A DNA stretch of 64,000 nucleotides from positions 186,001 to 250,000 of the forward strand of contig JABSOM010000004.1 in assembly GCA_013215945.1 (NCBI GenBank), given 5' to 3'. Of the stretch, positions 6,751 to 52,926 are shown in pieces; position 1 is the stretch's first letter; the number at the start of each line of letters is the position of its first letter. This DNA comes from Campylobacteraceae bacterium (GTDB lineage: Bacteria; Campylobacterota; Campylobacteria; Campylobacterales; Arcobacteraceae). Made by a program: the position numbers and the translations under genes. Under the pieces are notes generated by a model, which saw only the letters and a list, made by a program, of their open reading frames with translations, was not told the origin of the DNA and searched no databases.

Positions 6751-6897
6751 TAAAATAGAGGGAGAAATTATTGAATTTTTTTTCTAATCAAGGATGAGTT
6801 AGAATTTTTCCCGCAGTGTACATTAGTACATGAGGACAAAAATTATATCTCAGACGAAGAGTAGGAGAAAAAGGCAATAAGTTATACCTCTATTTTA
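6751..6897. repeat. ERIC/IRU-like palindromic element, copy A (degenerate)
   Basis: An imperfect palindrome. Perfect 11-bp terminal arms TAAAATAGAGG (6751-6761) and CCTCTATTTTA (6887-6897) enclose TTATTG/CAATAA, a T-run/A-run pair, and a 14-bp stem (6796-6809 with 6838-6851) with two mismatches. The core is a small hairpin TGTAC-ATTA-GTACA (6817-6830). The flanks ATCAAGGATGAG and CAGACGAAG match the two other copies in this window. The right arm contains the TAA stop of nadC (6895-6897), so on the minus-strand transcript the element is the 3' untranslated region of nadC. Confidence 0.8.
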
Positions 6898-7716
6898 GTC
6901 GAATTTCATTGAGAAGTCTAACCACGTTGCTTGATGAATCATTGAACCCGAACTCAAAGCATCAACCCCAGATAAAGCATACTCTCTAACAGTCTCCAAA
7001 GAAATGTTTCCAGAAGCTTCAATTAATATATGAGAATGATTTTCATCTCTGTATTTTATAACTTCTTTGATTTCTTGGGGTTTCATATTATCACACATTA
7101 TAATATCAGCTCCTGCATGCATAGCTGTTTCTACTTGTGCAAAGGTCTCACATTCAATTTCTATTTTAGTAACCCAAGAAATTCGTTTACGCGCTTTTTT
7201 TATAAATTCTTCTAAATTATCAATAGTTCTTAAGTGAGTATCTTTAATCATTAAACAATCATCTAATCCTAAGCGGTGATTAATAGCTCCACCCACTCTA
7301 GTTGCATATTTTTCAAATTCTCTTAATTGTGGTCTTGTTTTTCTAGTATCTAACATAACTACGTCTAAATCTTCTATTTTTTTAACATAAGAATTTGCCA
7401 TAGTAGCAATGCCACTTGCATGTTGTAAAAGATTTAAAAAAGTACGTTCGCTTGAAAGTAAAACAGAAGCTTTACCTTCTAACTCAGCAATGATATCCCC
7501 TTTTTTGAGAACATCCCCATCGTGTTTTAAAAACTTACAGTCAAATCTTTCTGTTCTTGCTAATACTTTTGCATACTTAACACCCGCCAAAATTCCATCT
7601 GCTTTTGCTATTGCTCTTGCTTTAAAACGTCCTTTTGGGGCAATATCAAAGAATAAATCACCTCGCCCATTGTCTTCTATAATTGCGTTTTTAACGAATT
7701 TTTTTATGTGAATCAT
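6895..7716 (-). CDS. nadC: Nicotinate-nucleotide diphosphorylase (carboxylating)
   Basis: Converts quinolinate plus PRPP into nicotinate mononucleotide, CO2 and pyrophosphate in de novo NAD synthesis. It has 273 residues, normal for the family. The signature LDTRKTRPQLREFEKYA and GGAINHRLGLDD are present, as are the C-terminal EASGNIS and GVDALSSG segments that shape the phosphate-binding barrel end. Its start overlaps the end of nadA by 4 bp, so quinolinate maker and user are co-translated. An ERIC-like repeat begins at its stop codon. Confidence 0.97.
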   Translation of the reverse strand: MIHIKKFVKNAIIEDNGRGDLFFDIAPKGRFKARAIAKADGILAGVKYAKVLARTERFDCKFLKHDGDVLKKGDIIAELEGKASVLLSSERTFLNLLQHASGIATMANSYVKKIEDLDVVMLDTRKTRPQLREFEKYATRVGGAINHRLGLDDCLMIKDTHLRTIDNLEEFIKKARKRISWVTKIEIECETFAQVETAMHAGADIIMCDNMKPQEIKEVIKYRDENHSHILIEASGNISLETVREYALSGVDALSSGSMIHQATWLDFSMKFD

Positions 7717-22962: not shown

Positions 22963-23107
22963 AAAATAGGGGAAGAAAGGGATAGATTTTGTCATAAATC
23001 AAGGCGGAGATATAAATTCATGAGAAGCTTACACTAGTAAGTGCCGATTGAATTTATATCTCCAACGCAGAGTTAGGGCAGAAGCTAGCGCTTTATTACC
23101 CTATTTT
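22963..23107. repeat. ERIC/IRU-like palindromic element, copy B (best preserved)
   Basis: Outer arms AAAATAGGG (22963-22971) and CCCTATTTT (23099-23107). The core has ATCAAGGCGGAG, a perfect 15-bp stem GGAGATATAAATTCA (23006-23020) with its complement (23049-23063), a central hairpin CTTAC-ACTA-GTAAG (23028-23041), and CCAACGCAGAGTTAGGGC. The TAG stop of the UvrD-like gene (23101-23103) is inside the right arm. Core words match, from memory, the enterobacterial ERIC consensus (AAGGCGG; GAGCTTAC/GTAAGTGA; CCAACGCA). Confidence 0.85.
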
Positions 23108-25155
23108 TTTTCTACGAAAGAGGAAAGTATGTCTCTCTTGCTTCCACCAAAGTTAATCGTCAACTTATACTCTTTACCAACTTTATTACTCTTCTCCACC
23201 CTACCCATTCCAAATATTTTATGAGTAACCATATCGCCTTTTCTAAAATCCGAGCGTCTCTCAATTTTTAATGAGCCTTTTATCAAGCCAGATTCACTTA
23301 AGAACCTCGATTTTGTAAGCATTGCACGTTTACCTTTATAAAATCGAGAGTGAACAAAAGACAAAGTCAAAGTATCCATTGCTCTTGTAAATGCAACATA
23401 TCCTAAGCGTCTTTCTTCTTCAAGATTACTTCCATCCCCAATAAGAGGAAAAAATCCTTCTTCAAGCCCTATTACAAAAAGATGTTTGTATTCTAAACCT
23501 TTTGAAGCATGAATACTCATCATTGAAACTGCTTCATTAAAAAGTTTATCTTGTTCCGATTCTAAAGAAATTTCATTTAAAAAATCTTCTAAATTTAAAT
23601 GTGGATTTTGCATAAAATAATCTCTAATAAAACCTGAAAATTCATCAATATTTGCCTGTCTATCCATACCATCTGGAGCATTATCATAAGATGAACGGTA
23701 ATCAAATATCTCTTCAAAAGCGTCTAAAAATCTCATTTTAGATTCTTCTAATACATCTTTTAAATCCAAAACTGAAGCAATAAATACTTTTAAAGTACGG
23801 CTGTTCTTTTTTCCAACCAGCAGAATTAATTCTTCTGGGCTTAAATCATCAATAAGTTTAAAAATTGGTTTTTTATCTTGAATTGATCTGGCGTCTAGTT
23901 TATCTATTGTTGTTTTTCCTATTCCACGTTTTGGTTTATTTACTATTCGTTTAAAAGAAAAATTATCAGTTGGATTGGTAAGTATTCTAAAATAAGCGAT
24001 TAAATCTTTAATCTCAGCTCTTTCATAAAACTTCATTCCACCAACTAATTTATAAGGAAGTCCTGCTTTATTAAACCCTTCTTCAAGCGATCGTGAAAGC
24101 GCATTCACTCTAAATAAAATTGCAATATCACTGGCACACTCACCTGCTAATAGGAGTTTTTTTATATCATCAACTAATTTTCTTGTTTCTTCATTTTCAT
24201 CATGAGATTCATAAAGTTTAACTGAATCTCCTTTATGTCGTGTTCCTCTTAAATTTTTACCTAATCTGTTTCTGTTATGTTCAATTAACTGATTGGCATG
24301 ATTTAAAATAGTATCTGTTGAGCGATAATTTTCTTCAAGTTTTATAACTACTGTATCTTTAAAGTGTTCCGTAAAATTTAAAATATTTTTAATCGTTGCA
24401 CCTCTCCAGCCGTAAATACTTTGATCATCATCACCAACTACACAAAGGTTATTATGAGTACAACATAAAGCACGTAATAACTTGTATTGTAATTCATTTG
24501 TATCTTGATACTCATCAACCATGATATATTGATATTTTGCAGATACTTCTTTTGCTAGTTCTTTATTTTTATCCATAATTTTATAAGGCAATAATAATAA
24601 ATCATCAAAATCAACTAGATTATTTTTTAATAAATATGCTTCATATTTTTCATAAATATCTGCGATTTGAGTATAAAGTTTTAGTTGTGCACTTTGTTTT
24701 ACTTCAAAGGGAGATAAAATACTGTTTTTATATTTTGAAATTTCATTTGCCATTAAAGCAGTCGTTATTTCTTTATCAATACTTCTTAAAATTCTTTTTT
24801 TATCGTCTGTATCAATAATAATAAAATTATTTTTTCTATCCAATACTTGCATATGCAGTTTTAAAAATAACAAACCAAATTTATGAAAAGTACATAATAA
24901 AGGAGGAGTATTAATAAGATTTGGGTCAATCAAAGAAAAAGCACGTTCTCTCATTTCTTTTGCTGATTTATTTGTAAATGTCAGGGTTAAAATAGAGCTA
25001 GGATCAATTCCAATAGAAATTAAATAAGCCAGTCTTGTGGTTATTGTTTTTGTTTTACCAGAACCTGCACCTGCTAAAATAAGCAAAGGTCCATCAATAT
25101 GCTGTGAGGCTTTTTGTTGAGATTCATTTAAAGTAGCTAAAAAATTTTCTGACAT
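23101..25155 (-). CDS. UvrD/PcrA/Rep-family 3'-5' DNA helicase
   Basis: A superfamily 1 helicase of 684 residues with all motifs: Walker A LAGAGSGKTKTIT, motif Ia TFTNKSAKEM, motif II DEYQDTNELQ, motif III VVGDDDQSIYGWRGA, motif IV ENYRST, motif V SIHASKGLEYKHLFV and motif VI RLGYVAFTRA. There is no C-terminal nuclease domain, so it is not AddA or RecB. It probably serves repair or clearing of replication forks. Whether it is UvrD, PcrA or Rep cannot be told here. It stands alone; ERIC-like copy B starts at its stop. Confidence 0.95.
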   Translation of the reverse strand: MSENFLATLNESQQKASQHIDGPLLILAGAGSGKTKTITTRLAYLISIGIDPSSILTLTFTNKSAKEMRERAFSLIDPNLINTPPLLCTFHKFGLLFLKLHMQVLDRKNNFIIIDTDDKKRILRSIDKEITTALMANEISKYKNSILSPFEVKQSAQLKLYTQIADIYEKYEAYLLKNNLVDFDDLLLLPYKIMDKNKELAKEVSAKYQYIMVDEYQDTNELQYKLLRALCCTHNNLCVVGDDDQSIYGWRGATIKNILNFTEHFKDTVVIKLEENYRSTDTILNHANQLIEHNRNRLGKNLRGTRHKGDSVKLYESHDENEETRKLVDDIKKLLLAGECASDIAILFRVNALSRSLEEGFNKAGLPYKLVGGMKFYERAEIKDLIAYFRILTNPTDNFSFKRIVNKPKRGIGKTTIDKLDARSIQDKKPIFKLIDDLSPEELILLVGKKNSRTLKVFIASVLDLKDVLEESKMRFLDAFEEIFDYRSSYDNAPDGMDRQANIDEFSGFIRDYFMQNPHLNLEDFLNEISLESEQDKLFNEAVSMMSIHASKGLEYKHLFVIGLEEGFFPLIGDGSNLEEERRLGYVAFTRAMDTLTLSFVHSRFYKGKRAMLTKSRFLSESGLIKGSLKIERRSDFRKGDMVTHKIFGMGRVEKSNKVGKEYKLTINFGGSKRDILSSFVEKK

Positions 25156-51892: not shown

Positions 51893-51972
51893 AACTATCC
51901 TATACTTTTAAAATCTTTATTTTAAATTCATTAAATCCAAAATTAAAACTTTTTCTTATGCTTATAAATAGT

Positions 51973-52101
51973 CTCAAAGTGTGAGGTTTTTTTCAAGACC
52001 AAGGCGGAGTAAAAATCTAGGCAGGAGCGTACTTTCGTACGTGACTGTCTAGATTTTTAAGACAACGAAGGTATTGGTAAAAAGCTTACGCTTTGTGGCT
52101 A
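51973..52101. repeat. ERIC/IRU-like palindromic element, copy C
   Basis: Outer arms CAAAGTG (51975-51981) and CGCTTTG (52089-52095, one G-T pair). Inside are CCAA/TTGG, AAGGCGGAG, a 15-bp stem TAAAAATCTAGGCAG (52010-52024) with its complement at 52045-52059, a core hairpin CGTAC-TTTC-GTACG (52028-52041) and CAACGAAGG. The TAG stop of fabI (52099-52101) follows at once. The core word AGGAGCGTAC/GTACGTGACTG is close to the ERIC centre as I recall it. Confidence 0.83.
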
Positions 52102-52926
52102 TTTATCTGTGCCGTTCCATGCTATTCTTTGCTTCCCATTCTCATCAAATCTAGTTGCTGGCATACCCATAATATTGTAACCACAATCCACATAATGAAT
52201 TTCACCTGTAACAGCTGAGCTTAAATCAGATAATAAATACATACCAGAATTCCCAACCTCAGTAGTTGTTACATTTTTCTTCAAGGGTGCATGCGCTTCA
52301 TTCCACTTAAGCATGAATCTAAATTCACCAATTCCAGCAGCAGCTAGGGTTTTAATAGGACCTGCTGAAATAGCATTTACTCTAATACCATCTTTTCCTA
52401 AGTCTTCTGCTAAATATTTTGTAGTCATTTCTAAAGCAGCTTTAGCTATTCCCATTAAATTATAATTAGGAATATATTTAACTCCTCCATAATAAGTAAG
52501 CGTTAATACGGAACAAGAATCACTCATAATTGGTTTTAACTCTCGTACTACTTCTATTAAAGAATAAACAGATACATCCATTGCAATATCAAAAGAAGCT
52601 TTAGGAATATCATAAAATCTCCCTGTTAAACCATCTTTTGGAGCAAAAGCAATTGAATGTACAATAAAATCAATTTTTCCAAAGTCTTTTTCTAAAGAAA
52701 CTTTTAACGCTTTTATTTCATCTGGATTAGATACATCACATGGATAAACATAATCTTGGCTTCCAAATTCAGCAGCTATTGGCTCAACACGTTTTTTAAT
52801 TGCATCATTTACATAAGTAAAAGCAATTTCTGCGCCTTGATCTGCACATGCTTTTGCTATTCCATACGCAATAGATTTATTATTAGCAACCCCTAAGATT
52901 ACTCCTTTTTTGCCCTTCATAAACAT
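52099..52926 (-). CDS. fabI: Enoyl-[acyl-carrier-protein] reductase (NADH)
   Basis: Last step of each fatty-acid elongation cycle. It has 275 residues. The atypical SDR cofactor loop is GVILGVANNKSIAYGIA, and the catalytic YxxxxxxK is in PNYNLMGIAKAAL. IRVNAISAGPIKTLAA follows. This is the triclosan-target type. It ends the gap-pgk-tpiA-fabI run, 10 bp past tpiA. Confidence 0.97.
   Translation of the reverse strand: MFMKGKKGVILGVANNKSIAYGIAKACADQGAEIAFTYVNDAIKKRVEPIAAEFGSQDYVYPCDVSNPDEIKALKVSLEKDFGKIDFIVHSIAFAPKDGLTGRFYDIPKASFDIAMDVSVYSLIEVVRELKPIMSDSCSVLTLTYYGGVKYIPNYNLMGIAKAALEMTTKYLAEDLGKDGIRVNAISAGPIKTLAAAGIGEFRFMLKWNEAHAPLKKNVTTTEVGNSGMYLLSDLSSAVTGEIHYVDCGYNIMGMPATRFDENGKQRIAWNGTDK

Follow-up and report, generated by a model that had tools for sequence, protein, structure and literature searches.

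ERIC is among the best known of bacterial repeats and is the basis of ERIC-PCR typing. The element, also called IRU or RU-1, has been placed in the Enterobacteriaceae and Vibrionaceae (PMC10969869) and is elsewhere listed only in E. coli, Y. pestis, and V. cholerae (PMC2267715). Enteric ERIC makes a TA target duplication. Copies at gene 3' ends change transcript levels in Yersinia (PMC10969869, PMC2229807). The YPAL / RU-2 repeat of Yersinia is, like the elements described here, a palindromic miniature element near stop codons, but it is about 168 bp long and the core motifs are only partly recognizable, by eye only, in its printed sequence (PMC2759123). Integron attC sites share with our elements variable yet paired stems, a location at gene 3' ends, and a folded strand antisense to the gene; our elements, however, adjoin chromosomal housekeeping genes, not cassette arrays, and no R-box pair (RYYYAAC/GTTRRRY) was seen by eye; identity with attC was considered and dropped. 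Two Rfam families also show some likeness: V_AS5 (RF02818), a Vibrio antisense RNA, and sX9 (RF02228), a Xanthomonas sRNA listed third among the 20 most prevalent sRNAs of bacteria (PMC9029176).

We describe here a family of repeats represented three times in a stretch of 64,000 nucleotides, referred to as the window, from a member of the Arcobacteraceae (Campylobacterota).

The window elements and their relation to ERIC

Three hairpin-forming repeats of 140-149 bp are present in the window. They are the three that a preliminary description, made from the sequence alone, had credited with one plan, and this claim held, the third being slightly longer than stated there (51966-52105 versus 51973-52101). 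Full extents were taken from folding; each copy forms a single long hairpin, and the z values below are relative to dinucleotide shuffles. A search of the window with R2, a multi-phylum covariance model of 80 rows (six of them enterobacterial-type), returned exactly three significant matches, which are these copies; the next best match had an E value of 0.39. The elements and the genes that they adjoin are as follows.

6751-6899, + strand: copy 1, whole element; core 6785-6866; arms AAAATAGAGG...CCTCTATTTT; fold z -7.3; R2 E 1.9e-12
6895-7716, - strand: nadC; stop codon 6895-6897 within the right arm of copy 1; TIGR00078 (E 9.7e-89) plus open reading frame
22963-23108, + strand: copy 2, whole element; core 22996-23077; arms AAAATAGGG...CCCTATTTT; fold z -7.7; R2 E 1.6e-17
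23000-23009, + strand: conserved CAAGGCGGAG box of copy 2, opposite CCAACGCAG in the fold
23027-23043, + strand: apical hairpin AGCTTACACTAGTAAGT of copy 2, flanked by the conserved internal loop
23101-25155, - strand: UvrD/PcrA/Rep-type helicase; stop codon 23101-23103 within the right arm of copy 2; PF00580/PF13361 plus open reading frame
51966-52105, + strand: copy 3, whole element; core 51996-52077; arms AAATAG...CTATTT; fold z -11.2; R2 E 4e-19
52099-52926, - strand: fabI, enoyl-ACP reductase; stop codon 52099-52101 within the right arm of copy 3; NF006266 (E 8.3e-147) plus open reading frame

Each element consists of outer inverted arms enclosing CAAGGCGGAG, a 15-bp stem, a.TAC-N4-GTA. 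apical hairpin separated from the stem by a conserved internal loop, and AACGNAG, after which the second arm follows. AACGNAG and a set of common words had been claimed for all copies; this held only in part, since copies 2 and 3 carry AAGGCGGAG and AACGNAG whereas copy 1 carries AAGGATGAG and GACGAAG. Core spacings are fixed despite such letter changes (20 nt from GGAG to TAC, 24 nt from GTA to AACG). Allowing at most one mismatch, CAAGGCGGAG occurs four times in the window against 0.33 expected, and the two exact occurrences are those of copies 2 and 3. For the family as a whole, the core reads CAAGGCGGAG, a variable paired stem, GGAGC.TAC-N4/5-GTA.GTGA, the returning stem, and C.AACGC.G; the outer arms around it vary freely in their letters and are always paired. 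The internal loop is AAG / TGC in copy 2 and 5'-GAG / 5'-TGA (tandem G.A plus G.U) in most copies, its G.U pair being retained in 79 of the 80 copies of the multi-phylum alignment. The arms of copies 1-3 start and finish at TA, with no clean empty site for comparison.

We consider it very likely that ERIC and the window elements are branches of one family. Like ERIC (Enterobacterales, Vibrionaceae), the window elements are single long imperfect hairpins with inverted terminal arms, dispersed between genes, overlapping gene 3' ends, and carrying motifs in the order AAGGCG .. GGAGCTTAC-N4-GTAAGTGAC .. CCAACGCA; full enteric copies read AAGGCGGC..GGAGCTTAC-N4-GTAAGTGAC..CCAACGCA, with the same order and with spacings within about 2 nt. 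The differences lie in length (140-149 bp, or 142-143 bp in two recent bursts, versus about 125-127 bp), in stem letters that vary freely where ERIC has the conserved CCCCAG/CTGGGG of the ERIC-PCR primer sites (ERIC1R/ERIC2), in outer arms that are unrelated and site-specific, in a nearly fixed antisense orientation, and in the presence of the family in other phyla, some relatives having 3-4 bp duplications. Because the letters of the stem change from copy to copy and pairing is retained, we regard the window elements as a separate branch and not as ERIC itself.

Two covariance models bear on this relationship. R1, for which only five copies from this genome were used, matched 26 of 26 enteric loci: the E. 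coli ERIC (L026), located via the ERIC primer consensus, and another 25 of enterobacterial type. The latter had been pre-chosen by a motif common to both, so that a cleaner test is provided by four ERICs located independently with the Salmonella ERIC sequence printed in PMC2759123. On 120 kb of sequence these were the top four R1 matches (E 0.0013, 0.0017, 0.21, and 1.1), all on the expected strand; R2 matched them at E 4e-8 to 4.5e-5 and matched nothing else. If an ERIC-type superfamily is defined by the core plus a covarying stem as recognized by R2, the window copies belong to it (E 1.9e-12 to 4e-19). A match to a Salmonella plasmid ERIC (L276) was left out because it adjoins an effector gene.

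The preliminary description had named two outcomes that would refute it, the lack of further copies in the genome and the lack of a covariance-model match to ERIC. Both checks were passed, the first with 17 copies at E below 1e-6 and with copies in 45 of 61 family genomes, the second with the four ERICs above. It had also offered a choice between wide horizontal spread and an older, broader family. Copies from Campylobacterota, non-enteric Gammaproteobacteria, Bacteroidota, and Nitrospirota have the core in common and lack the enteric stem letters and outer arms; since these are not shared, the window elements are not enteric ERICs that jumped, and the older, broader family is the likely alternative, in preference to spread from enterobacteria.

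Distribution and mobility

The 17 copies found by R1 in this genome lie on different contigs, giving about 17 dispersed elements. Within the Arcobacteraceae, the genomes with R1 copies represent 18 of 20 genera and carry up to 37 copies each. A single scan of about 85,000 species genomes for the exact core pattern yielded 61 loci, which fall in Arcobacteraceae, other Campylobacterota, Gammaproteobacteria MAGs (Lysobacterales, Chromatiales, Pseudohongiella, BD1-7, Pseudoalteromonas, and Erwinia), Bacteroidales, and one Nitrospirae MAG. Most of these loci also have CAACGC at the fixed distance and a complete paired fold, neither of which the pattern required. Pattern matches in Bacteriovorax and Odoribacteraceae had no model match and were set aside as chance.

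R2 was applied to draws of about 850 whole genomes from four groups and was positive in 71 of 298 Campylobacterota genomes (22 of 59 genera), 53 of 185 Gammaproteobacteria, 34 of 247 Bacteroidota, and 11 of 118 Nitrospirota. That most genomes in each draw have zero copies argues against a leaky model. Some genomes carry 20-90 copies, among them a Bacteroidales MAG (90), a Bacteroides-titled MAG (30), and two Lysobacterales MAGs (32 and 36). Gammaproteobacterial copies also occur in tandem, mostly about 125-141 bp apart (L083, L089, L115, L120, L128, L133).

A mobile origin of the family is likely. The features of a miniature inverted-repeat transposable element (MITE), that is, terminal inverted repeats (TIRs), a target duplication, no internal transposase gene, and recent dispersal, are met in two genomes and have not been shown for the window copies. 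One of these, G563 of the Bacteroidota draw, carries numerous 142-bp copies that are nearly identical, share the ends GGGCRCCTCTATTTATT, and have target duplications of 4 bp (ATAA, TAAA, TTTA). In the other, the gammaproteobacterium G773, copies of 143 and 166 bp share the ends AGAACCTGTTCACGATCT, and seven of eight are flanked by a TNA duplication. In G826 (Nitrospirota) the ends are different (ACGGC...GCCGT) and there is no clear duplication. Since the ends differ among the three genomes, the core travels inside unrelated ends; and because the duplications also differ by lineage (3 bp, 4 bp, none clear), a single mobilizing enzyme is not established. Subgroups of the IS5 family typically produce duplications of 2, 3, or 4 bp. 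Presence or absence of elements also differs between related genomes.

No autonomous partner was found in the form of an intact insertion sequence with the element ends, either in TIR scans of G563 and G773 or at PF01609 loci in six genomes. An IS5-like transposase tail adjoins arm-like sequence in G773 (L317), with tblastn E values of 0.009-0.1 that are weak and suggestive only, and this tail has no Pfam or NCBIfam match. Derivative forms were also seen. In the 166-bp form of G773 (L311-L315), 23 bp (CCTCGGTACCCCCTTGAGGGGTG) are inserted after the inner stem and before AACGCC, and both forms are multi-copy. In G563 the inner hairpin may be deleted, replaced (with TTTTGAACCACGAAA), or cut to a 43-bp palindrome of the ends (L265, L266, L267).

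Position, pairing, and strand at gene 3' ends

Campylobacterota elements keep to one position, antisense and on the stop codon of a gene. In a mixed set of 94 copies, 83 have as right neighbor an antisense gene whose end faces the core, mostly 12-31 nt away. A second, overlapping set was broken down by phylum for gene ends lying 5-45 nt from the core. In Campylobacterota a gene 3' end lies within this interval to the right of the core in 45 of 46 copies, with no gene starts; the corresponding counts are 7 of 7 in Nitrospirota and 14 of 23, against one gene start, in non-enteric Gammaproteobacteria. The preference is weak in Bacteroidota (11 versus 3 gene starts).

The adjoining genes are housekeeping genes, of fabI, GAPDH, nrdA/B, htpG, guaB, secF, uvrB, gyrB, lepA, and other types; their names come from sequence recognition, with formal annotation for window genes only. 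The 3' end of a GAPDH-type gene carries an element in ten gammaproteobacterial MAGs (L083, L100, L101, L102, L104, L108, L114, L119, L128, L129), and element-bearing htpG-type genes (L117, L130, L141) have a separate small palindrome across the stop codon (AGCTCTNTAAAAGAGCT). Stop codons are TAA or TAG at 72 of 73 element sites. In Campylobacterota this preference is uninformative, as TGA is rare there anyway (3 of 51 window genes); in Gammaproteobacteria TGA ends the gene at 1 of 19 element sites versus 26 of 101 in the background, a modest difference based on sites that are not independent.

The left arms match only their own site. When they are swapped between copies, pairs with the 3' UTR fall from 14.8 to 2.4, stop-codon pairs from 2.2 to 0.4, and coding-letter pairs from 9.0 to 4.5. 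Identity running through the stop codon into at least eight coding letters is found in 39% versus 10%, and at the carA site of G009 the coding end and the arm carry a matching change. In some copies pairing runs past the stop codon and takes in the final codons, which couples the structure to the host gene's 3' end. Most arms in Gammaproteobacteria and Bacteroidota end at or near the stop codon.

The claim that stems differ between copies and stay paired held beyond chance. Among five copies of this genome, both sides have changed at 16 of 24 pairs, and 90% of cells are paired versus 70.6% in shuffles. Over 80 copies there are 575 double-changed cells versus 178 +/- 12 in shuffles, both sides have changed at every variable-stem pair, and the covariation score is 0.698 versus 0.177 for shuffled alignments, with slid-structure controls at 0.01-0.15. 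The 80-copy alignment was fitted to structure; the five-copy count and the constant spacings are independent of that fitting.

Change in place can be followed by comparison with G043, a genome of the same genus whose flanking genes are 93-99% identical. Across eight shared sites, 30 double changes are compensated, 18 changes are one-sided, and 33 pairs are broken, 13 of the latter at one site. Copy 2 differs by a single G-C to A-T double change, whereas at the uvrB site the inner stem is wholly different and the outer arms are nearly identical. The suggestion of recent fold-back copying is neither shown nor excluded. Copies at the fabI site are present in many species with covarying stems and with site-specific letters (AGACCAAGG...GACAACG.AGGTATTG) common to several genera; they probably represent one inherited copy. 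The nadC and uvrD sites are filled in two of seven genomes (this one and G043) and empty in five relatives, and therefore record gain or loss of elements. In two same-genus genomes, G015 and G032, the fabI site holds just a terminator-like stem, AAAAACCTAGGCATTTTTGTCTAGGTTTTT, without the remainder of the element (L143, L145); the arms of this stem resemble the inner stem of copy 3, as would fit either decay to, or origin from, a plain terminator. The ortholog of copy 3 in G043 (L172) has arms partly masked as N.

The stem pairs are not symmetrical between strands. On the element strand, which is antisense to the adjoining gene, G.T outnumbers A.C by 52 to 6 and G.A outnumbers C.T by 43 to 2. 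In an unbiased set of 22 orthologs, fetched by gene homology and not by covariance model, this strand is the better folder in 22 of 22 (mean -54.3 versus -38.5 kcal/mol; background SD of the strand difference, 7.2), and the G.U count is 123 versus 43 (p 4e-10), about one G.U per copy being the conserved core pair. The G.U asymmetry is absent in gammaproteobacterial, Bacteroidota, and Nitrospirota copies; its absence from recent bursts in other phyla is expected of young palindromes. A search for an antisense-strand promoter found no positional peak upstream. Without transcript data, we lean towards selection on the antisense-strand fold in Campylobacterota, an inference held with limited confidence.

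Competing explanations

The reading that we prefer, with a probability of about 0.6, is that of an ancient multi-phylum, non-autonomous inverted-repeat family that includes ERIC and of which some old copies have been kept for their single-strand fold; that they are kept by selection is inferred. Copies would arrive via transposition supplied in trans, and antisense insertions exactly at the stop codon would do least harm and would be the ones retained. The persistence of many Campylobacterota copies through speciation would reflect the reading of the folded antisense strand by a cellular or mobile factor. This putative factor would recognize the core motifs and need a stem of any sequence, and its folded substrate may be a short antisense RNA or single-stranded DNA.

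A bolder version, which we think unlikely, is a pan-bacterial mobile element that is recognized when folded as a single strand, either antisense RNA or single-stranded DNA, through two conserved mismatch modules on interchangeable stems, that targets stop codons for insertion in a single orientation, and that is then kept as a cis-antisense regulator acting on gene 3' ends; ERIC, sX9, and V_AS5 would then be fragments of one system.

The strongest rival, itself improbable, is a purely selfish MITE, in which TIR-bounded copies are moved by a DDE transposase acting in trans (e.g., of IS5 type), the palindrome persists through template-switch repair or through conversion among arms and among copies rather than through function, and the orientation bias is a least-harm footprint. 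In its favor are the near-identical bursts with TIRs and 3-4 bp duplications, arm compensation that within a genus outpaces change in the flanking genes, the whole exchange of the uvrB inner stem between same-genus genomes while the outer arms stay, and, weakly, the IS5-like transposase tail that adjoins a copy of one arm. Arm-to-arm repair, however, restores Watson-Crick pairs without strand bias, yet G.U exceeds A.C on the element strand (in both counts above); internal mismatches are conserved across phyla, and copies stay at one site across genera.

A second rival, which fares considerably worse, is an mRNA 3'-end element, a hairpin in the sense transcript after the stop codon that governs decay of the mRNA or its termination, a role proposed for Yersinia ERIC. 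It is supported by the position on stop codons, by the altered transcript levels in Yersinia cited above, and by the terminator-like stem at the fabI site in two same-genus genomes. Against it, the mRNA strand folds more weakly (by the means given above), the conserved internal loop becomes C.U/U.C and A.C mismatches on that strand, and no intrinsic terminator (G+C stem followed by a U tract) was found at copy 2, the only copy examined. Convergence, by which any structured repeat with short motifs might come to resemble ERIC, draws on the shortness of the matched core and the low R1 scores of enteric ERICs (13.7-38.5 bits) but is very unlikely given four motifs in identical order at near-equal spacing, the four ERICs as top four matches in 120 kb, the 26 of 26 loci matched, and intermediates in many gammaproteobacteria.

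Under the preferred reading of an ancient family that includes ERIC, a four-phylum homologous family with covarying stems and a strand-specific fold would make ERIC one branch of a far older, structurally constrained class, and ERIC-PCR gains a possible real target outside the enterics. Genomes with recent bursts make the questions of ERIC mobilization and of fold reading testable.

At gathering score, Rfam gave no match to the window or to 15 relatives. Below that score, V_AS5 matches the E. coli ERIC on the element strand (E 1.7e-7), and sX9, which models only part of the element (the apical hairpin plus one core half, on the opposite strand), matches copies of the Bacteroidota draw in a relaxed search (E 0.0016-0.049). 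Both appear to be unrecognized members of the ERIC-type family; this suggests that two Rfam sRNA families, including one among the most often annotated (sX9; PMC9029176), are partly copies of a mobile repeat. The relaxed RF02228 and RF02818 matches lie in loci L246, L242, L231, L026, and L275.
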